NCBI RefSeq assembly: GCF_014653175.1
Contig: NZ_BNAG01000001.1
Span: 1,116,001 to 1,180,000, forward strand
Length of the DNA stretch: 64,000 bases
Origin: Roseivirga thermotolerans
GTDB taxonomy: Bacteria > Bacteroidota > Bacteroidia > Cytophagales > Cyclobacteriaceae
Direction: 5' to 3'
Below are positions 1 to 9,508 of this stretch, in pieces. Every line of letters begins with the position of its first letter. The stretch's first letter is position 1. Position numbers and translations under genes: made by a program. Below the pieces are notes generated by a model. The model did not search any database. It saw nothing but the letters and a program-made list of their open reading frames with translations, and was not told the DNA's origin.

Positions 1-852
1 TATAGTTCTGGTAATGTTGGGGTTGGTACAAGCTCTCCTTCCGAAAAACTTCATATAGTAGGGAGTATAAGGCTTGAGAATGGATTTGATATCATTTCAA
101 ATGACAACTTCGCCATCAATGATGGCGTCTATGATCGCTTTATTTATAACTCCGGTAACTATTATAGAGCAAAATCCATCCACGCTTTTTATAAGGAGAA
201 TACCGAATTGATGCGACTGACGGAGAATGGTCATCTAGGTATTGGTACCACTACTCCTTCAGATAAACTACATGTATCAGGTGGCGGTATAATTTTACAC
301 AACCTGGGGCGAGACCAAGACAACTCCAACATTATCAAAATTTCAGAAGGGACAAGCGATCAATTCTTCTTACAGGGAATGTTTGCCGGAATAGGCTCAA
401 CAGGCAACTCCATAAGGTTTAAATCAGCTTGGCAAGACGATCTACTATTTATGAGAGGTGACGGCAAGATTGGAATCGGCACCTCCTCCCCGTCTGAAAA
501 ACTCGAAGTCAACGGTACCATCCGCTCCAAAAAGGTTAAAGTTGAGGCATCGCCTTGGCCTGACTACGTTTTCTCCTCAGATTACAAACTCAGACCCTTA
601 AACGAGCTGGAACAATTTGTCCAGCAAAACCAGCACCTACCCGAAGTGCCCTCTGCCAAAGAAATAGAAGCCAATGGTCAAGACTTGGGAGATATTCAAG
701 TGGTGCTTTTAAAAAAGATTGAGGAGTTGACGTTGTATGTGATTGATCAAGACAAGAGAGATAAAGAGCAGCAAATTCTTATTGAAAGGCTGCTATCTGA
801 GAACACCTCTCTTAAAAAAGAAATTGAAATCATTAAAAACCAAAAACAATAA
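1..852 (+). CDS. Fibre-like surface protein, array copy 1 (5' end outside window)
   Basis: The reading frame is open from base 1, so the start and signal peptide lie upstream; the in-frame ATG at 208 is internal, because the codons before it already encode a VGVGTSSPSEKL repeat. The visible 283 residues hold three GxxGIGT-type repeats (window start, about residue 78, about residue 156), then the constant block with [35 protein letters not shown] and [11 protein letters not shown], and a short heptad-rich tail ending IKNQKQ. The constant block and coiled coil resemble C-terminal regions of Bacteroidota proteins often labelled tail-fibre or S74-chaperone-like. Trimeric assembly or self-processing is possible but not shown. 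Confidence 0.85.
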   Translation, partial: YSSGNVGVGTSSPSEKLHIVGSIRLENGFDIISNDNFAINDGVYDRFIYNSGNYYRAKSIHAFYKENTELMRLTENGHLGIGTTTPSDKLHVSGGGIILHNLGRDQDNSNIIKISEGTSDQFFLQGMFAGIGSTGNSIRFKSAWQDDLLFMRGDGKIGIGTSSPSEKLEVNGTIRSKKVKVEASPWPDYVFSSDYKLRPLNELEQFVQQNQHLPEVPSAKEIEANGQDLGDIQVVLLKKIEELTLYVIDQDKRDKEQQILIERLLSENTSLKKEIEIIKNQKQ

Positions 853-857
853 ACATT

Positions 858-1748
858 ATGAAAAAGCTCATTTACTCTGTTCTTATTCTTTTATCTTCTA
901 CTTGGATGTTTGCTCAAGGCACAAGAATCGACTTAAGTCCCCTGTACTATAATTCGGGCAGTGTCAACGTAGGTGGATTCAGTAATCAAGGCCTGATTGT
1001 TAGACATCTTTATGGAAAAGAGCCTAATACAATAAATCAAGATGACCTGTATCTAAATTATGCCAATGGAAAAGCAATCTATGTTGGGTACGGTGGAACG
1101 AATTCTAATTTATATGTGAGTGGAACGATTTACTCAAATACCAACTATGGACTAATTCTATCTCCGGTAAGCGGTGATGCAGTTATTAAAAGAGGCAATT
1201 CTGGCAACCTCATGATCAGTTCTGGTGGTACGGGAACAGATGTAAGGTTCAATTATAATTATGGGGGAGGTAGTGGTGGAATCCGTATCTACGATGGGGG
1301 TATTAGCAATCATGCTCAATTAAAGGTTAACTCAAGTGGCAATCTATCCATCATTCCCACTGGAGACAAAGTACTTTTTGAAAGCGATATTGAGACCAAG
1401 AAAGTCAAAGTAACCCAAACTCCAGGTAACTGGCCAGACTATGTCTTTTCCTCTGCATACAACCTCAGGCCATTAATCGAGCTAGAGCATTTTATCCAGC
1501 AAAATCAACACCTACCCGAAGTACCTTCTGCCCAAGAGATTGAAACCAACGGTCAGGACTTGGGAGATATTCAAGTGGTGCTTTTGAAGAAGATTGAGGA
1601 GTTGACATTGTATGTGATTGAGCTGGAAGACGGTAGACAGAAGCTGGAAGCCGATAATTCACAACTCAAGGTTGAAAATTCAGAGATGAAAGCCCTGTTT
1701 CTGGATTTGAAGAAAGAGATTGAATCCATTAAAAACCACAAACAATAA
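858..1748 (+). CDS. Fibre-like surface protein, array copy 2
   Basis: A 296-residue secreted protein. Residues 1-19 form a signal peptide ending FAQ. The middle is glycine-, serine- and asparagine-rich beta-type sequence, and it is the only array member without a clear GIGTxxP repeat; a degenerate SGSVNVGG stands where copies 3, 5 and 8 have SGNVGIG. The constant block starts near residue 179 ([17 protein letters not shown]), with [20 protein letters not shown] around residues 217-236 and [13 protein letters not shown] after it. The tail is a charged coiled coil (about 245-296) ending IKNHKQ. The start lies five bases after the previous stop, with no Shine-Dalgarno, so translation may be coupled. 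Cell-surface or extracellular fibre is inferred. Confidence 0.85.
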   Translation: MKKLIYSVLILLSSTWMFAQGTRIDLSPLYYNSGSVNVGGFSNQGLIVRHLYGKEPNTINQDDLYLNYANGKAIYVGYGGTNSNLYVSGTIYSNTNYGLILSPVSGDAVIKRGNSGNLMISSGGTGTDVRFNYNYGGGSGGIRIYDGGISNHAQLKVNSSGNLSIIPTGDKVLFESDIETKKVKVTQTPGNWPDYVFSSAYNLRPLIELEHFIQQNQHLPEVPSAQEIETNGQDLGDIQVVLLKKIEELTLYVIELEDGRQKLEADNSQLKVENSEMKALFLDLKKEIESIKNHKQ

Positions 1749-1753
1749 ACATT

Positions 1754-2740
1754 ATGAAAAAGCTTATCTATTCACTTCTTATACTTTTCTCATCAAATCT
1801 AGCATTTGCTCAATGGACAACCAGTGGTTCCAACATCTACTACAATTCTGGTAACGTAGGTATAGGAGTAATATCACCCGTTGATAAGCTTGATATTAAT
1901 GGGAATATTTCGACCAATGGAATTCTAAAGATATCTAAAAGTGGTGCAGGAGGTGCTCAATTGAGACTTTACAATACTTATGGTTCCTCGGAAGATTGGA
2001 GAATTCAAGCAGGTATTCCCGCGATAAGCGATAATACTTTAGCCATTCAGACCATAAGTAATTCTACCACTCATTTTGCTATTAAAAATGATGGTAGTGT
2101 AGGTATTGGGACTTCTTCACCAACAGGCAAGTTTCAAAGTTATATTAGTGCAACACGTTATTTTGGGCATAATGTTAATGGGGCTGACCTCTCTGTTCTG
2201 AGTGATAATAATACTGCTCCTGTCTTTAAGGTCGTAGGAACCGGAAATGCTGATCTTGTAAATATTCTAGATGGTAGTACCGAGGTCTTTACCATAAAGG
2301 ATGGTGGTCAAGTAGGAATAGGCACAACCTCACCCTCTGTGAAACTAGAAGTCAATGGCAACGCCTTATTCCAAGGCAACATTGAGTCCATGAAAGTTAA
2401 GGTCACACAAGACCCTGGCAATTGGCCAGATTACGTCTTCTCACCCAACTTTAAACTTAGAACCTTAACCGAGTTGGAAACTTATATCCAACAAAATCAA
2501 CACCTACCCGAAGTGCCCTCTGCCAAAGAAATAGAAGCCAATGGTCAAGACTTGGGTGATATTCAGGCAGTTCTCTTGAAGAAGATTGAAGAGTTGACGC
2601 TCTACCTTATTCAGGAGAATAAGGAAAACTCAAACCTCAAAGAGCAAATCACAAAAGTAGAAGATGAAAATCAAGAACTAAGAGAAATGCTTCAGGAAAT
2701 AAAGAAGGAAATTGAAACTATCAAAAACGACAAACAATAA
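1754..2740 (+). CDS. Fibre-like surface protein, array copy 3
   Basis: A 328-residue secreted protein with a signal peptide (cleavage near AFA-QW, residue 18) and a mature N-terminus [19 protein letters not shown] that is shared almost exactly with copies 5 and 8. It has three GIG-type repeats: near residues 33-50, at about 115-125, and just before the constant block at about 190-205. The constant block contains [16 protein letters not shown] and [20 protein letters not shown], followed by [11 protein letters not shown]. The tail ([14 protein letters not shown]...) is coiled coil and closely resembles that of copy 6. The 3' half is mosaic: one segment matches copy 1 and the next matches copy 4. 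Function inferred as surface fibre. Confidence 0.85.
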   Translation: MKKLIYSLLILFSSNLAFAQWTTSGSNIYYNSGNVGIGVISPVDKLDINGNISTNGILKISKSGAGGAQLRLYNTYGSSEDWRIQAGIPAISDNTLAIQTISNSTTHFAIKNDGSVGIGTSSPTGKFQSYISATRYFGHNVNGADLSVLSDNNTAPVFKVVGTGNADLVNILDGSTEVFTIKDGGQVGIGTTSPSVKLEVNGNALFQGNIESMKVKVTQDPGNWPDYVFSPNFKLRTLTELETYIQQNQHLPEVPSAKEIEANGQDLGDIQAVLLKKIEELTLYLIQENKENSNLKEQITKVEDENQELREMLQEIKKEIETIKNDKQ

Positions 2741-2745
2741 ACATT

Positions 2746-4068
2746 ATGAAGAAGATCATCTACGCCCCAATTTTTCTTTTCTTTTCGGTATTTACCTTCG
2801 CTCAAAACTCATTTCCAAGCTCAGGGCAGGCCAATATTGACTATGATGCTGCGGCCGCTTTAAAAATCAAGAACTGGAATAGATTTGGATCTACTAATGG
2901 CGGACATTATCCATACTGGGGCATGGGTATTGAGCATACGAATGCGGGATGGAACAGTTTTCAGTCAACTATTAGAGGATCCTTGATTCTTAATTGGGGA
3001 AATGCAATTCATTTTTCCAGTGCTCCAGCCAATACTACCAACGCCTCCTTAACAACTCATATGTCCATTAATACGCTTAATGGGAATGTGGGTATTGGAA
3101 CAACAACCCCAAGCGCGAACTTGGAAATCTTTGGTACTGAACCTTCATTAAGGATAAGACCTTCTAGCCCGGATGAGCATGCACGCTTAAAATTGGATTG
3201 GGGGACAACTGATGATTCTGGTCTTGAACTTTCTTATCATCCCAATTCTGCCGTTGGTTTTATTGATAACAAGTATGAAAATGAACCCAATAGGGTTTGG
3301 GGCGATATTCAGTTTAGGAGAAGAGACTCAGGTGTTATGACACCCACGATGACACTCAAGGCAGAAACGGGTTTTGTAGGAATCGGTACTACTTCCCCTA
3401 GTGCCAAATTTGATTTAAGAGACGGGCATTTGTATGTTGGAGATGACACATTTAATAACCCCGGAAGTTGGGGGGCCACAATAAACCTAGATGATAATGT
3501 TCATTCACGTATTCTGATTGAAGAGCGAGCTACTGGAGTTCAAACATCTTTGTGGGCTCACACTGGGGGCAATGCAAAGGTTGGGACTATTTCCAATCAC
3601 AATTTTGGGATTATTACTAATGGTCGTGAAAAGCTTACAGTTCTGACTAATGGCAGTGTTGGGATTGGTACCGTATCTCCTAATGAAAAACTGGAGGTGA
3701 ACGGCAACGCACTTTTCCAAGGTAATATAGAATCCATGAAGGTAAAGGTTACCCAAACCCCGGGTAACTGGCCTGACTACGTTTTCTCCTCAGATTACAA
3801 ACTCAGACCCTTAAACGAACTTGAGCATTTTATCATGCAAAACCAGCACCTACCTGAAGTGCCTTCTGCTCAGGAGATAGAAGCTAACGGCCAAGACTTG
3901 GGGGATATTCAGGCAGTTCTCTTGAAGAAGATTGAAGAGTTGACATTGTATGCCATCCAGCAAGAAAAGAGACTTGAGACTTCAGATGCCAGATATCATA
4001 AGTTGGAAAGCCAATACAATGAGCTTAAAGTTCTTTTACAAGAAATCATCAAAAACCAAAAACAATAA
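2746..4068 (+). CDS. Fibre-like surface protein, array copy 4 (longest)
   Basis: At 440 residues this is the longest array member. The signal peptide ends FAQ near residue 20. The middle has three GIG-type repeats ([47 protein letters not shown]) separated by unique beta-rich segments. The constant block has [36 protein letters not shown] and [11 protein letters not shown]. The tail is a coiled coil ending IKNQKQ. Bases 3811-3917 are identical to 6931-7037 in copy 7, while the bases just upstream match copies 1, 5 and 8 instead, which points to recombination between copies. Upstream spacer is the standard five bases. Confidence 0.85.
3811..3917 (+). repeat. 107-bp block identical to 6931-7037 (gene-conversion tract)
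   Basis: Bases 3811-3917 in copy 4 and 6931-7037 in copy 7 are identical, covering [20 protein letters not shown] through GQDLGDIQA. The bases immediately before differ: copy 4 there follows the copy 1/5/8 version. Identity with sharp edges between otherwise diverged paralogues is the expected mark of recent recombination or gene conversion. Confidence 0.85.
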
Positions 4069-4073
4069 ATACT

Positions 4074-5147
4074 ATGAAAAAACTTGTCTACGCACTTCTT
4101 ATACTTCTTTCATCAACTCTAGCATTTGCTCAATGGACAACAAGTGTTTCAGGTATTTACTATAATTCCGGTAAGGTTGGTATCGGTACTGCCACACCTA
4201 CAGAGAAACTGACTGTAGCAGGCAATATAAGGCTTTCCAACTATGCCTATCAGGAATTTACAATTGGCAATACTAAAGGCTATATATGGGGTAATCATGA
4301 CTACAGTGGTACAGCAGGAGCTTTTCAGGATGATTTGGTTATTTCAGCTAACTGGCAAGGTGTAAATTCTAATAGTGACAATATTGTCAATTCCAGTAGT
4401 TTCCTTAGAAATGGAGCAATAAGTGTAGGTAGACATGGAATAAGATTTTTTATGTCTGACAATTCTACATCTGCTCCAAGTGAACGCATGACTATTGCAT
4501 CTAATGGCAATGTTGGTATAGCAACTTCCAGCCCAGGAAAACTTTTGGAATTGGGATCTAATACTGGCCGTCAAGGCTATATTCGTTTAAGAAGTCCAGG
4601 AAACTCTTATGAGGGTAATATATATCACACTTCAGACTATAGTCTATATTTTGATACCAATAGTAATCAAAGACCTATAAGGATTGATGGGTCTGCACTG
4701 ATTACGGGTATGACAGGCAACGTTGGTGTAGGAACCACCTCCCCAAATGAAAAACTCGAAGTTAACGGCACCATCCGCTCCAAAAAGGTTAAAGTTGAGG
4801 CATCGCCTTGGCCTGACTACGTTTTCTCCTCAGATTACAAACTCAGACCCTTAAAAGAGCTGGAACAATTTGTCCAGCAAAACCAACACCTGCCAGAGGT
4901 ACCATCTGCTCAAGAGATAGAAGCCAACGGTCAGGACTTGGGAGATATTCAGGCAGTGTTATTGAAGAAGATTGAGGAGTTGACTTTGTATACTATTGAG
5001 CAGGAAAAAAGACTTGAGACTTCAGATGCCAGATTTCAGTCTTTAGATTCCAAATATCAGAAGTTGGAGAGTGAGAATGCAGAGTTGAAAACAATGCTTC
5101 TTGAGATGAAGAAAGAAATTGAAACCATTAAAAACCAAAAACAATAA
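4074..5147 (+). CDS. Fibre-like surface protein, array copy 5
   Basis: A 357-residue secreted protein. The signal peptide ends AFAQ and the mature start [19 protein letters not shown] is shared with copies 3 and 8. Further repeats are [16 protein letters not shown] and [17 protein letters not shown], the last leading directly into [19 protein letters not shown]. That segment is almost base-for-base the same as in copies 1 and 8. The coiled-coil tail ([19 protein letters not shown]) is nearly the same as in copy 7, so the two ends have different closest relatives. The preceding spacer is atact rather than acatt. Function inferred as surface fibre. Confidence 0.85.
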
Positions 5148-5152
5148 ACATT

Positions 5153-6133
5153 ATGAAGAAGACACTTTTATCAGCGATCGTACTATTTATCAATTCATTT
5201 ATGCTGGCCCAAAGCAATACTTTTCCATCAAGTGGAAATGTGGGTATTGGTACTTCAAGCCCAGCATATAAGTTAGATGTAAAAGGAAGTGGTTGGATTG
5301 GTAATGGACTGAATGATGGGATTTACGTTGGTACTGGAAATCACGCTATTTGGACTCGTACTGGTAATACTCTTGGAAAGCTTGTCCTCTTTTCTGGCAA
5401 TGCCGATCGACTGACTATTGATGGTGATAATGGTTATGTTGGGATTGGGACTTCCTCTCCAACAAAACTACTTGAAGTCAATGGGGATACCAGAATTGGA
5501 AATCTTACATCAAGAAACTATCTCAAACTTTCATCATCACTATGGCCAGAGGTAAGATTTCAGACTCCGAGCAATGATGAAAGTATTCGGCTTGGTATGG
5601 CTCATTCCAATGATTCAAATTATGGAATTGAAGTAGGTGATTTCTATGTGTGGTCAGATTTAGTTAATCAAATGCCTTTAATAGTCAGAAGAAATGGAGA
5701 TTTATCCCTAAGTCTTCAAGGGGGTAACGTTGGTATTGGAATGTCATCTCCAAACGAAAAGCTTGAAGTCAACGGCACCATACGCTCCAAAAAAGTAAAA
5801 GTAGAAGCAACCGGTTGGCCTGACTACGTTTTCTCCTCACATTACAAACTCAGACCCTTAAAAGAGCTGGAACAATTTGTCCAGCAAAACCAGCACCTAC
5901 CCGAAGTGCCCTCTGCCAAAGAAATAGAAGCCAATGGCCAGGACTTGGGAGATATTCAAGTGGTGCTTTTAAAAAAGATTGAGGAGTTGACGCTATACCT
6001 TATTCAGGAGAATAATGAAAACTCAAACCTCAAAGAGCAAATCACAAGAGTGGAAGGCGAAAATCAGGAATTAAGAGAAGTGCTTGAGGAACTGAAGAAG
6101 GAAATAGAAGCTATTAAAAATCAAAAACAATAA
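5153..6133 (+). CDS. Fibre-like surface protein, array copy 6
   Basis: A 326-residue secreted protein with a signal peptide (MLAQS near residue 20) and a short mature N-terminus running straight into [20 protein letters not shown]. Two more repeats follow ([17 protein letters not shown] and [17 protein letters not shown]). The constant block carries [20 protein letters not shown], with a histidine in place of aspartate (SSHYKLRPL) compared with its paralogues, then [20 protein letters not shown] and [11 protein letters not shown]. The tail [14 protein letters not shown]... is shared with copy 3 and ends IKNQKQ. Same inferred role as its neighbours. Confidence 0.85.
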
Positions 6134-6138
6134 ACACT

Positions 6139-7227
6139 ATGAAAAAGACTCTTTATTGTCTGCTCATTTTTTTCTCTTCCGTTCTGGTCTGCGCTCAATC
6201 AACGGTTATTTCTGATCGTCTTCAATTCGCAGGAACCAATACTTTAAATACAAGTCTAACTCATGGGCAAATAATCTCATATAATTGGGGGAGCCTCCAA
6301 TTAGCCAGTAGATCAAATGCTGATAAACATATGTCTTTTCATACAGGAATCGGAGCTATTGAGAGAGTCAGAATTGAACCTAATGGGAACGTGGGAGTAG
6401 GAACTACAACCCCTTCTTCAATACTCCATGTCAATGCTCCCATAAATCACTACTCAGACGATGGCTCAAAAAGCACACTTAAACTTGCTTACAATAACAC
6501 TGATTACGCAAGACATTTTATTGGAACAAACTGGGACTATTACATTGAAAACCCATATTCAAGCACGGCAAGGGGTGGGGTTCATATTCGCACGGCCGGA
6601 GTCACTCGAATGAGTATTGCAAAAGACGGCCGCATCGGCATAGGAACTAATACTCCAACGGCATCACTTGATATAAATAATGGAATATTAAAGGTTAGGG
6701 GTAATTCATCACTTGGTCAGGAATCCGCAAGGTTTATTGTAGACACAGGTACTTCATCCGGCCATGTATTAATGGTGTTGAGAAATACTCCTAATGGTGA
6801 GGTTTTAAGGGTTAATGGAAGTGGCTCAATGATTCTCAATGGAGATTTAGAATCTAAAAAAGTCAAAGTCACCCAAACCCCGGGTAACTGGCCTGACTAC
6901 GTGTTCTCTTCAGATTACAAGCTCAGGCCATTAAACGAACTTGAGCATTTTATCATGCAAAACCAGCACCTACCTGAAGTGCCTTCTGCTCAGGAGATAG
7001 AAGCTAACGGCCAAGACTTGGGGGATATTCAGGCAGTGCTTTTAAAGAAAATTGAGGAGTTGACGCTTTATACCATTGAGCAAGAGAAAAGACTTCAGAC
7101 TTCAGATGCCAGATTTCAGGCTTTAGATTCCAAATATCAGAAATTGGAGAGCGAAAATAATGGGTTAAAAAGTCTGCTTCTCGAAATGAAGAAAGAGATT
7201 GAAACTATTAAAAACCAAAAACAATAA
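6139..7227 (+). CDS. Fibre-like surface protein, array copy 7
   Basis: A 362-residue secreted protein. The signal peptide ends VCAQS near residue 20. Repeats are [17 protein letters not shown] and [16 protein letters not shown]. The segment before the constant block ([20 protein letters not shown]) lacks the usual [10 protein letters not shown] lead-in. The constant block is of the copy 4 type ([20 protein letters not shown]), with a 107-base stretch identical to copy 4. The tail ([19 protein letters not shown]) matches copy 5. The upstream spacer is acact. Function inferred as surface fibre. Confidence 0.85.
6931..7037 (+). repeat. 107-bp block identical to 3811-3917
   Basis: Partner of the identical block in array copy 4. 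Both flanks diverge at silent positions (position 6930 against 3810; position 7038 against 3918), which gives the tract defined edges. Confidence 0.85.
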
Positions 7228-7232
7228 ACATT

Positions 7233-8186
7233 ATGAAAAAGGCTCTTTATTCCCTACTAATTCTTCTTGCTACAACTTCCTTATTTGCTCAATGGACAAC
7301 CAGTGGATCGGATATATATTATAATTCTGGTAATGTTGGGATTGGTTTAGACGACCCTCGAGTTAAACTCCAAATATCAGGTTCTGTTGAATCGCATGGG
7401 GCTCTAATATCAAAATTTAGTAATCTAAGTCCCAGTGATTTCATTACAAGTAATACTTATCGAAGTTTTACTGCCTCTGCTTATACAGATGGGAGTGGAG
7501 TTTCCATCAGTAGATATTTTAATTATCGGTCAGTACATGGAGGATATGTAGATTATAATTCTCAGGGTTATGGATTCTACAGTCAGGGTGCTTATCCTCG
7601 GATGTTCATGGAAGTCATTTCGGGAAACCATGGGGCGTATGGTTACTTGCCAAGTGACTCCCCAGTAAGAAATGGCTATATCTATCAGCAGATTAAAGGG
7701 CCTTCGGGGAGTGGTTTAAGTACTCCAATCAAAGCGACATCCTCCAATTCATCTTTTTTATGGGGTGTTAAATCAAATGGTGATCTCATTGTTGATCATA
7801 ATGTTGGTATTGGCACGACATCACCCTCAGAAAAACTCGAAGTCAACGGCACCATCCGCTCCAAAAAGGTTAAAGTTGAGGCATCGCCTTGGCCTGACTA
7901 CGTTTTCTCCTCAGATTACAAACTCAGACCCTTAAAAGAGCTGGAACAATTTGTCCAGCAAAACCAGCACCTACCCGAAGTGCCCTCTGCCAAAGAAATA
8001 GAAATAAATGGCCAAGATTTGGGAGATATTCAGGCAGTTCTTTTGAAAAAGATTGAGGAGTTAACTTTGTATCTCATTGATGAGAATAAAGAAAACGAAG
8101 CCTTAAAAAAGGAGAATCAAGACCTAAAAGAATTGTTATTGAGCTTGAAGCAAGATGTAGAAATTCTAAAAACCAAAGTGAACTAA
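7233..8186 (+). CDS. Fibre-like surface protein, array copy 8 (last)
   Basis: A 317-residue secreted protein that closes the array. The signal peptide ends LFAQ and the mature start [19 protein letters not shown] is shared with copies 3 and 5. The middle is tyrosine- and serine-rich and has no internal GIG repeat until [17 protein letters not shown] directly before [19 protein letters not shown]. The constant block is of the copy 1 type, and the coiled coil ends differently from the others (LKTKVN). No array-type junction follows; a gene on the opposite strand ends two bases downstream. Confidence 0.85.
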
Positions 8187-8187
8187 A

Positions 8188-8619
8188 TCACTTTGGCTTA
8201 AAAAACATAGTTAGGATTCTCATTAAAAAGTATCCTGCAAATGGCAGAATGGGTGTGGCATAAGTATATGCCCACCAAATTTCAGAGGCATTATCCTGTC
8301 CGCTGAAGCTGGCCGACCAGTTGCCTGAAAGCAGATAGGTTACGGGAATCCAAAGAACTCCTAGAACTAAGCTCGCTAGAACACAGATTCGAAATACTTT
8401 AAGCGGAATTGGATGAACTTTCCTGGTACTTCTAATGATGAGAAAGTTGAGAGGAAACAGCACGAACATAACCGCAGTCATTAAGTTGCCCCAAGGCAAA
8501 CTACCTCCTTCCACGACCGGCATGGTCAATAGGGGCGATCCTGTGGCCAGTGAGGTTATCACAAACATCTGAATGAGCACTGAGGCAAGAAAGAAGTATT
8601 TGATTCGTTTATTGTTCAT
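8188..8619 (-). CDS. Small four-helix integral membrane protein, function unknown
   Basis: A 143-residue hydrophobic protein with about four membrane segments (near residues 8-25, 42-62, 75-95 and 115-137) and short polar loops. I do not recognise the family. The chosen start is the ATG at 8619 (MNNKRIKYF); a longer frame from 8658 would run through the divergent gene's start region and adds a poor N-terminus. It ends two bases from the array's last gene (convergent) and its start is only 22 bases from the divergent SUMF1-type gene, so the two starts must share a very compact promoter region. No catalytic motif is visible. Confidence 0.7.
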   Translation of the reverse strand: MNNKRIKYFFLASVLIQMFVITSLATGSPLLTMPVVEGGSLPWGNLMTAVMFVLFPLNFLIIRSTRKVHPIPLKVFRICVLASLVLGVLWIPVTYLLSGNWSASFSGQDNASEIWWAYTYATPILPFAGYFLMRILTMFFKPK

Positions 8620-8641
8620 CTTAAACTTCAACTTAAAAACA

Positions 8642-9508
8642 ATGAACAAAGCTAACACACTTTTGCTGGCAATACTGCTATTCTCAACACCATCATTCGC
8701 TCAAAATAAAGCTCCTCAAATTCCTGATATACTTTCCGAGAAACACTGGGCGTACATTCCTGGACATGCAGGTGAGGCTGGATTTTATATGGCAAAGTTT
8801 GAGACAAGAGTAGTAGACTACAGGAGGTTTTATGGAGATGGTGGAGAAAAGAACACTAAACATGAACCAGAAGTAAGTGTCTGGAACTTTCGGAAAAACC
8901 TCGATGAATCCAAGCTCATGCACTACTATGAGCATACAGCTTTTGACAATTATCCAATTGTTGGTGTAGACTTAAGTGATGCCAAAGCCTATGCTGAATG
9001 GCTTACTGTAGCATATAATAATCAACCGAAACGTGAGTTCAAGAAAGTCCTTTTCCGCTTGCCAACTGAACAAGAATGGGAATGGGCAGCTCGAGGAGGT
9101 AATGATGTTGCTCCTTTTCCCTGGGGTGGACCTTACATTAGAAACTCTAAAGGAGATATTCTCGCCAATATTTTAAGAGTAAGTGACACCAACATAATCA
9201 GCCAAGTTCAAGAAGGTGGTTCAATTGAATTTAGCCTTGCTCAGGAACAGATTGACAAAGTCAACCCCACCAGCTACACGAGCCCGGTAAATCAATTTAT
9301 GCCAAATCGCTATGGCTTGTACAACATGAGCGGCAATGTGAGTGAAATGACAACCTCACCTTATAGTGAAGGAAAAAATTCAACAGTGGCTAAAGGAGGA
9401 AGTTATCTTCAAACACCCTATTGGGCTATGATAAGTTCAAGACAGGAGTTCTCCAAGCCAACTGCTTATACTGGTTTCAGATTGGTAATGATGGTGGTTG
9501 AGAAGTAG
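8642..9508 (+). CDS. Secreted SUMF1/FGE-fold protein without cysteines
   Basis: A 288-residue protein with a signal peptide ending SFAQ (about residue 21). The mature part has the formylglycine-generating-enzyme (SUMF1) fold signature: an early YMAKFETRVVDYRRF (the usual E-V-T position), FRLPTEQEWEWAARGG near residue 140, and a C-terminal GLYNMSGNVSEM...KGGSYL...TGFRLVM. The active-site cysteines of true formylglycine-generating enzymes are missing; the protein contains no cysteine. It is therefore probably a binding or structural member, like GldJ/GldK-type proteins of this phylum, rather than a sulfatase-activating oxidase. The ATG at 8642 is chosen because it begins the signal peptide; the frame extends upstream to 8573 but only through non-signal sequence. 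Confidence 0.8.
   Translation: MNKANTLLLAILLFSTPSFAQNKAPQIPDILSEKHWAYIPGHAGEAGFYMAKFETRVVDYRRFYGDGGEKNTKHEPEVSVWNFRKNLDESKLMHYYEHTAFDNYPIVGVDLSDAKAYAEWLTVAYNNQPKREFKKVLFRLPTEQEWEWAARGGNDVAPFPWGGPYIRNSKGDILANILRVSDTNIISQVQEGGSIEFSLAQEQIDKVNPTSYTSPVNQFMPNRYGLYNMSGNVSEMTTSPYSEGKNSTVAKGGSYLQTPYWAMISSRQEFSKPTAYTGFRLVMMVVEK

Follow-up and report, generated by a model that had tools for sequence, protein, structure and literature searches.

Eight consecutive genes of Roseivirga thermotolerans begin alike and end alike around largely unrelated middles, and the question that this locus raises is how such an array comes about and what its products do. The genes lie in the window, by which we mean the whole stretch of 64,000 nucleotides (nt) that was analysed (contig C1, 1116001-1180000, within a 4.2-Mb genome of 12 contigs); the feature coordinates given here are positions in it. 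That the genes have this anatomy and exchange their middles is observed, and we have little doubt of it. For the array as a whole we lean, with slightly better than even confidence, towards eight beta-helical recognition fibres that are exported by Sec, are probably trimers and make up a recombining, probably co-transcribed repertoire, similar in kind to the mosaic adhesive trimers (MATs) of Bdellovibrio bacteriovorus. The genes, designated W1 to W8, all have open reading frames (ORFs) and, with their junctions, are arranged as follows:

1-852, + strand: W1, first gene, 312 amino acids (aa); the gene starts 87 nt before the window, at C1:1115914
858-1748, + strand: W2, 296 aa; the sole one of the eight without a VGIGTxxPxxKL-type motif
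1754-2740, + strand: W3, 328 aa; middle modules in common with another array, in genome G004
2746-4068, + strand: W4, 440 aa; middle clearly recognised at the corresponding site in genomes G001 and G014
4074-5147, + strand: W5, 357 aa
5153-6133, + strand: W6, 326 aa
6139-7227, + strand: W7, 362 aa; N-terminal part weakly resembles phage tail fibres
7233-8186, + strand: W8, last gene, 317 aa; C-terminus KTKVN, not KQ
853-857, + strand: junction W1/W2, 5 nt from TAA to ATG
1749-1753, 2741-2745, 4069-4073, 5148-5152, 6134-6138 and 7228-7232, + strand: the other 5-nt junctions

The original prediction had counted at least eight genes; leftward extension completes W1 (C1:1115914-1116852) and makes the array exactly eight. 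All the proteins start with a signal-peptide-like stretch, read directly from the sequence, and its ending in AQ fits the Bacteroidetes Q-rule as given in PMC5837995. The middles that follow measure 155 to 305 aa. A match over half of the shorter middle is found in 14 of the 28 possible pairs, at a median identity of 30%, and no pair reaches 45% over that length; past residue 22, nucleotide identity among the middles of W1-W8 and of S1, a further copy in this genome, is 50-59%. The seven proteins with VGIGTxxPxxKL-type motifs have two or three each. Next comes a C-terminal block of about 75 aa, with a median identity of 83% (minimum 78%) within the array and with 23 of 77 columns invariant among the 19 copies of the genome. 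Its fourfold sites are 52% identical overall, and because this is so far below the median for amino acids, most copies are old and the block is apparently under selection. A heptad pattern then runs to the C-terminal end, with p<=0.035 in seven proteins and p=0.0585 in W4. The common start, block and coiled-coil-like tail, and the unrelated middles of varying length, are thus as originally described, with the W4 heptads the least clear. No Pfam or NCBIfam model matches any of the eight proteins above its own cut-off. The blocks and one tail are placed as follows:

532-756, 1401-1631, 2393-2623 and 3739-3969, + strand: C-terminal blocks of W1 to W4 (alignment A1)
4785-5009, 5792-6016, 6859-7089 and 7866-8090, + strand: C-terminal blocks of W5 to W8 (alignment A1)
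7090-7224, + strand: most of the coiled-coil-like tail, W7 as example (heptad a/d hydrophobic excess 0.55, shuffle mean 0.18)

The exchange of middles is seen most directly where the ends of two genes are nearly the same. W1 and W8 are 94.7% identical in their first 114 nt; similarity returns shortly ahead of the C-terminal block and extends into it (91.4% over 278 nt), and between these two stretches nothing aligns. A second array in the same genome, on C5, repeats the picture: in its units b, c, d and e the upstream spacer and gene start are 94.0-95.4% identical in nt, and the C-terminal block 91.2-94.9% (in b, c and d including the spacer that comes after it). C5b is duplicated as a whole in C5d (96.6% over 1,771 nt), and the other C5 middles do not align. 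With near-identical ends around unrelated middles in both arrays, this is cassette replacement, and slow divergence could not produce it. A PHI-like test on the ends of W1-W8 (71 informative sites) put the nearby incompatibility at 0.510, compared with 0.597 +/- 0.015 for permuted sites and with 0 of 2000 permutations as low as observed, and the signal peptide, the block and the coil each pair the copies differently, so that the modules have conflicting relationships. Modules are also shared between species. The middle of W3 matches genes of an array in G004 at 74% over 95 aa (one gene) and 52% over 202 aa (another), and genes of G004 partly match both W2 and W3. A gene of G005 looks chimeric, its first 123 aa matching C5b (76%) and another part matching the last 77 aa of the W7 middle (58%). 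For W1, W5, W6 and W8, low-identity matches alone were found elsewhere in the family set.

The history of the site can be followed across the genus. The left flank of W1 holds a divergent gene for an acetyltransferase (GNAT) and argG, this last being the one arg gene name not assigned by eye; to the right of W8 come an opposite-strand ORF and an FGE-sulfatase-type gene:

8188-8658, - strand: R1, the right-flank ORF of 156 aa, which adjoins the array-free site in G016

The GNAT marker was found in 18 of 19 genus genomes, and fibre genes stand beside it in three of them: eight in the genome studied here, four in G001 and at least one in G014. The other 15 have no fibre gene between GNAT and the right-flank genes or in the flank examined. 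In G016, G018, G017, G002 and G009 the GNAT side closes tightly onto the right-flank genes; in G013, G005, G003, G011 and G008 about 1.3-4 kb of other DNA occupies the site; and in G007, G004, G006, G015 and G010 the right-flank gene lies outside the stretch examined, which for G010 was 3 kb. G016, whose marker is 91% identical, is without the array, and 66 nt separate its matching flanks. G005 has one fibre gene some 12 kb from the site, past the flank genes. The array of G001 consists of four genes with the same 5-nt arrangement (TAA-5 nt-ATG) at all three junctions and a similar leader. In G014 the gene adjoining GNAT has a similar leader and is cut short by the end of its contig; a second contig starts inside a W4-like gene and runs into the right-flank genes. 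The middle of W4 is recognisable in G001 (53%) and in G014 (66% of the first 128 aa), and S1 resembles another gene at the array site of G001 (44% over 447 aa); the middles other than that of W4 are not clearly common to the related species. Unchanged copy number and middles in relatives, the outcome named beforehand as contrary to exchange, were sought within the genus and not found. Together with the near-identical ends and the PHI-like test, this turnover between related species bears out the exchangeable middles of the original prediction.

Two other features of the site may be recorded. In G013 (L164:8039-9190) it holds a sigma-70-type gene and a partner gene of 215 aa, and given this content genes may be exchanged here unusually often. 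Upstream of GNAT, at a distance of about 140-200 nt, a stretch of 30-60 nt (L009:15611-15913) matches many genus genomes; the window and L009 gave no Rfam family at gathering score.

How the array would grow is suggested by its junctions. All seven consist of TAA, 5 nt and ATG, the 5 nt being ACATT in five and ATACT and ACACT in the remaining two; all resemble the leader upstream of the W1 start codon, ACAAACAATAAACATT, which likewise carries ACATT. As the spacers resemble this leader, the final KQ codons of W1 to W7 probably read duplicated leader, W8 having another end; the last gene of the G001 array also ends differently from the others. Tandem duplication across the leader would be the simplest account of array growth. 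The eight genes would form one transcript, and their signal peptides, if functional, would direct the fibres through Sec. A promoter scan of the sigma-70 type returned fewer sites than in shuffled sequence, and a Bacteroidota-type pattern gave three matches, two of them overlapping and none before W1.

For the exchange itself, the genome contains no reverse transcriptase and the array has no tyrosine recombinase nearby, which leads us to favour homologous recombination, both ordinary and unequal, as the route by which middles would be swapped, the conserved ends serving as its substrates. Three kinds of dedicated machinery were considered and set aside. A diversity-generating retroelement is not supported, as RVT_1 has no match in the genome. 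A site-specific shufflon driven by a tyrosine recombinase is likewise without support, the nearest PF00589 match on the contig lying about 0.5 Mb off (serine recombinases were not searched). Switching by inversion found no support in the 19 inverted-repeat pairs (14-27 nt, 74-93% complementary) of an 8.3-kb stretch, in which no pattern was seen.

As to function, the constant C-terminal block and coiled coil may assemble or present the fibre, and the variable middle, made of shaft and head, would bind targets that differ from fibre to fibre, glycans or other structures of cell surfaces being the likeliest. The roles raised in the original prediction, attachment, phage-receptor change or antagonism, are candidates. 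We regard a trimeric fibre as likely, and surface recognition as having about an even chance of being the function. Binding is favoured because X3, another member of the family in this genome (L013:5994-7193, on C3), has a Laminin_G_3 middle and because regions of the YadA_head and T4 gp36 types occur in relatives (in 2 and 3, respectively, of 132 relatives scanned, these being a random part of 199). X3 adjoins a gene resembling ftsZ, a name likewise given by eye.

The C-terminal block marks a large family, for which searches with Pfam and NCBIfam models gave no hit. It was found in 31 of the 59 genomes searched, that of R. thermotolerans included, and its bearers are common in Bacteroidota. 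A pattern scan of genome contigs yielded at least 589 stretches, at least 373 of which encode relatives; the best 80 of 373 loci were kept, so that proportions taken from them describe close relatives. Family ORFs were taken from stop to stop with automatic starts, a start being called in 260 of 292. Loci with 6-14 copies occur in records of Arcticibacter, Pedobacter, Galbibacter, Sphingobacterium and Flavobacterium, and where at least three copies are present, the spacing falls between -20 and +30 nt for 74 of 103 same-strand neighbours that are less than 400 nt apart. The block is more alike within arrays (medians 54-94%) than between them (53%) in 14 of 15 arrays, the exception being L113 with a median of 49%, and middle pairs at 45% identity or more number 0-2 per array in these 15.

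Plasmids carry the family in 8 of 72,556 records. The Persicobacter plasmid CP012864 (L203, 110 kb), an unannotated record, has 17 fibre-family ORFs in its first 31 kb, 13 of them in a single run, and plasmid pHIC of Haliovirga abyssi, a member of the Fusobacteriota, has five, with an operon for a type II secretion system (T2SS) directly before the array (L204, 2707-24222). A Leisingera plasmid (L205, 7056-8261) bears a single fibre-family gene, in an alphaproteobacterium and near polysaccharide export genes, which suggests transfer between phyla.

Within the genome of R. thermotolerans, 11 of the 19 copies of the block lie besides W1-W8: S1, between arginine genes; five on C5; three on C6; X1; and X3. 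Some of these, and some relatives, keep company with YD/RHS genes, and the fibres could serve secreted RHS/YD-repeat toxin systems as accessory subunits or as subunits for target recognition, in which case the window array would be a detached reservoir of them. Among the best 80 loci the same YD-type protein of about 1100 aa follows within 400 nt of 15 of the 91 fibre runs, and DUF6443 genes stand behind it in both loci examined, L107 and L071, the RHS core being model-confirmed in L107. In the genome studied here C6 abuts a YD/RHS-type gene, X1 overlaps one, and C5 stands after an RHS-core gene with a single ORF of 142 aa between; on the Haliovirga plasmid an RHS gene comes three genes after the last ORF with the block. 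Beside the window array, however, no YD/RHS or toxin-type gene was recognised, nor was an RHS gene beside S1 or X3. A tree of the block (49 rows, 91 columns; 15 of 46 inner branches left open) groups C5, C6 and X1 in a starred clade of 22 rows that contains neither W1-W8 nor S1, and that clade also includes copies with which no YD gene was found. The C6b middle, moreover, recurs at 54-77% identity in G001, in G014 and at loci of other genera, and in being conserved it is unlike most array middles. On balance we consider this toxin-subunit explanation unlikely. The genome has 13 Rhs_assc_core matches in all, eight on C7, four on C4 and one at the end of C5, with core clusters at G000:C7:1-18600 (L189) and C4:392001-411000 (L188).

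A wider speculation builds on the same neighbourhoods. T2SS-type genes were found in the examined flank of 12 of the 80 loci, up to about 9 kb away (L058, L066, L071, L077, L081, L089, L095, L098, L104, L113, L115 and L120); these counts and those of YD-type genes come from small profiles built here, with Pfam confirmation in L066, L071 and L113 only. In L095, L115 and L120 the profile-matched T2SS- or YD-type genes lie 2-9 kb away, and several of the T2SS-flanked loci also have YD/RHS genes downstream. T2SSF was detected in 14 of 19 array genomes, which were hand-picked. One might imagine a "T2SS - fibre array - YD protein - RHS toxin" system in Bacteroidota and on one Fusobacteriota plasmid, in which swapped fibres would be interchangeable parts that let a contact-dependent weapon, or a device for predation, recognise its target, with the window array a stand-alone, self-shuffling repertoire; we hold this to be doubtful, at somewhat under one chance in five. 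Such an arrangement was not found in the literature searched. The T2SS as a general export route is contradicted in the genus itself, in which T2SSF was found in 0 of 19 genomes.

The proteins might instead be structural or matrix components, forming an extracellular or periplasmic polymer whose middles vary since they are little constrained. Fibre-like repeats, and middles that mostly show no recognised binding domain, would suit such a role, but similarity among the C5 units stops abruptly after the signal peptide region and resumes before the block, which implies that whole middles were replaced, and middles of the W4 type have been kept across three species. This makes a matrix function quite improbable. 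Very improbable, too, is a set of old paralogues that diverged by point mutation into fixed, separate roles and exchange nothing: many pairs are close to saturation at fourfold sites, so that much of the array is old, but the near-identical ends around unrelated middles and the site compatibility test contradict it for the W1/W8 and C5 pairs, while for other copies it could still hold. Least probable of all, and largely contradicted, is an origin as prophage remains or as a phage-derived tail-fibre module, since the similarity of seven proteins (not W2) to PHROG tail-fibre models (best E=2.1e-15) and of N-terminal parts to phage records (17 for W7 and 4 for W5, at 26-31% identity among the matches listed) is offset by the signal-peptide-like starts, by the lack of any match to the W7 block in 50,697 phage records, by a family block that was met at 6 loci in viral contigs, and by arginine-biosynthesis genes on one side of the array and chromosomal genes on the other.

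The recombining repertoire of recognition fibres has its own difficulties, and the following points weigh against it. In the tree of the block W1-W8 are not one clade, W3 pairing with S1 (97/84); growth of the array from a single W1-W8 clade is therefore not what the tree gives, and it does not establish concerted evolution of the window array (the four G001 copies do form a clade, 100/89). The first unit of the C5 array, C5a, is less alike than its neighbours, at 87-91% in the block region and 81.5% over 65 nt at the start. Among the 132 relatives scanned, seven have any Pfam match at <=0.001, so that most middles match no known domain. Pairwise identity reveals no shared N-terminal domain in the array, the MAT domain itself not having been searched by model. 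Some family members precede YD/RHS genes, allowing another role. Finally, neither T2SSF nor a secretin has a match in the genome, and no Pfam or NCBIfam hit to a sorting domain of the type IX secretion system was obtained in the eight proteins at E<=1 (SprA_N is present in the genome); these results leave the proposed surface display without a route.

If the recognition-fibre reading is right, MAT-like fibre repertoires would exist outside Bdellovibrio, and with a visible route of diversification: leader-like junctions, tracts shared at either end for recombination, and middles that have been swapped. The array would then be a test bed for how a bacterium alters its surface recognition of other cells, surfaces or phages, and in part of the phylum such fibres would be linked to T2SS and RHS loci.

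No description of such arrays was found in the open-access literature searched, and comparison has to be made with systems that share one or another of their traits. The original prediction had likened the C-termini to Peptidase_S74, with which they have in common their position and a coiled-coil end. Against PF13884 the eight proteins gave no match at E<=1 (HMMER filters drop most matches above about 0.1), whereas three S74 matches occur elsewhere in the genome. Of 292 family members, 7 have the motif SDxxxK in their C-terminal part; within W1-W8 it occurs just before the block of W2 and in the middle of W7. Profile alignment by hhalign gives a probability of 59-68% when the coil is included (a score equalled by 0 of 60 column shuffles; reversed profiles give 6-13%) and 0.6-4% for the block without it (shuffles 1/60 and 0/60). 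The alignment rests mainly on the coil, and the shuffles are a weak control in that they destroy heptads too. Membership of S74 is not supported, for want of a PF13884 match and of a conserved SDxxxK. The predicted resemblance to phage fibres survives in part: GIGTxxP-type shaft repeats are common to the array and to tail fibres (phrog_9942, phrog_18345, phrog_3269), and this shaft similarity is real, although of low identity; the array proteins differ in their signal-peptide-like starts, and the block has no counterpart in phage records.

Polymorphic RHS toxins likewise join a constant to an exchanged part, and some fibre genes precede YD/RHS genes; in the account of them in PMC3482391, however, these toxins swap the C-terminus, whereas the array swaps the middle of an intact short gene. 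Fibrillar adhesins of the CshA type are also diversified by domain shuffling (according to PMC10952558), a likeness of description.

The closest parallel is with the MATs. In a search of PDB sequences the family profile A3 found 8ond (E=8.7e-6), followed by 8ol4 (0.042) and 8oml (0.15), and S1 found 8ond (E=1.1e-8), then 8oml, 8ojn, 8ol4 and 8on4. The A3 matches fall in the shaft motif that corresponds to the capping loop described in PMC10769870; seven of the eight array proteins carry this motif, and a loose capping-loop pattern is present in 216 of 292 family members. Both groups would be exported fibres with one conserved end and diversified parts, a beta-helix capping motif and many members per genome. 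They differ in which end is kept. According to PMC10769870, in whose main text the terms "tandem" and "Bacteroid" do not occur, all 21 MATs of B. bacteriovorus have a conserved N-terminal domain and variable C-terminal tips, and are typically about 1,000 aa long; they keep a beta-rich domain of about 130 aa after the signal peptide, whereas the constant end of the array proteins, which measure 296-440 aa, is the C-terminal block with its coil. A variable C-terminal tip of the MAT type was not encountered, the C-terminus being the conserved end in the array. We would thus not file the array as MATs, but it appears to follow the MAT logic of a constant end, diversified parts and many members.

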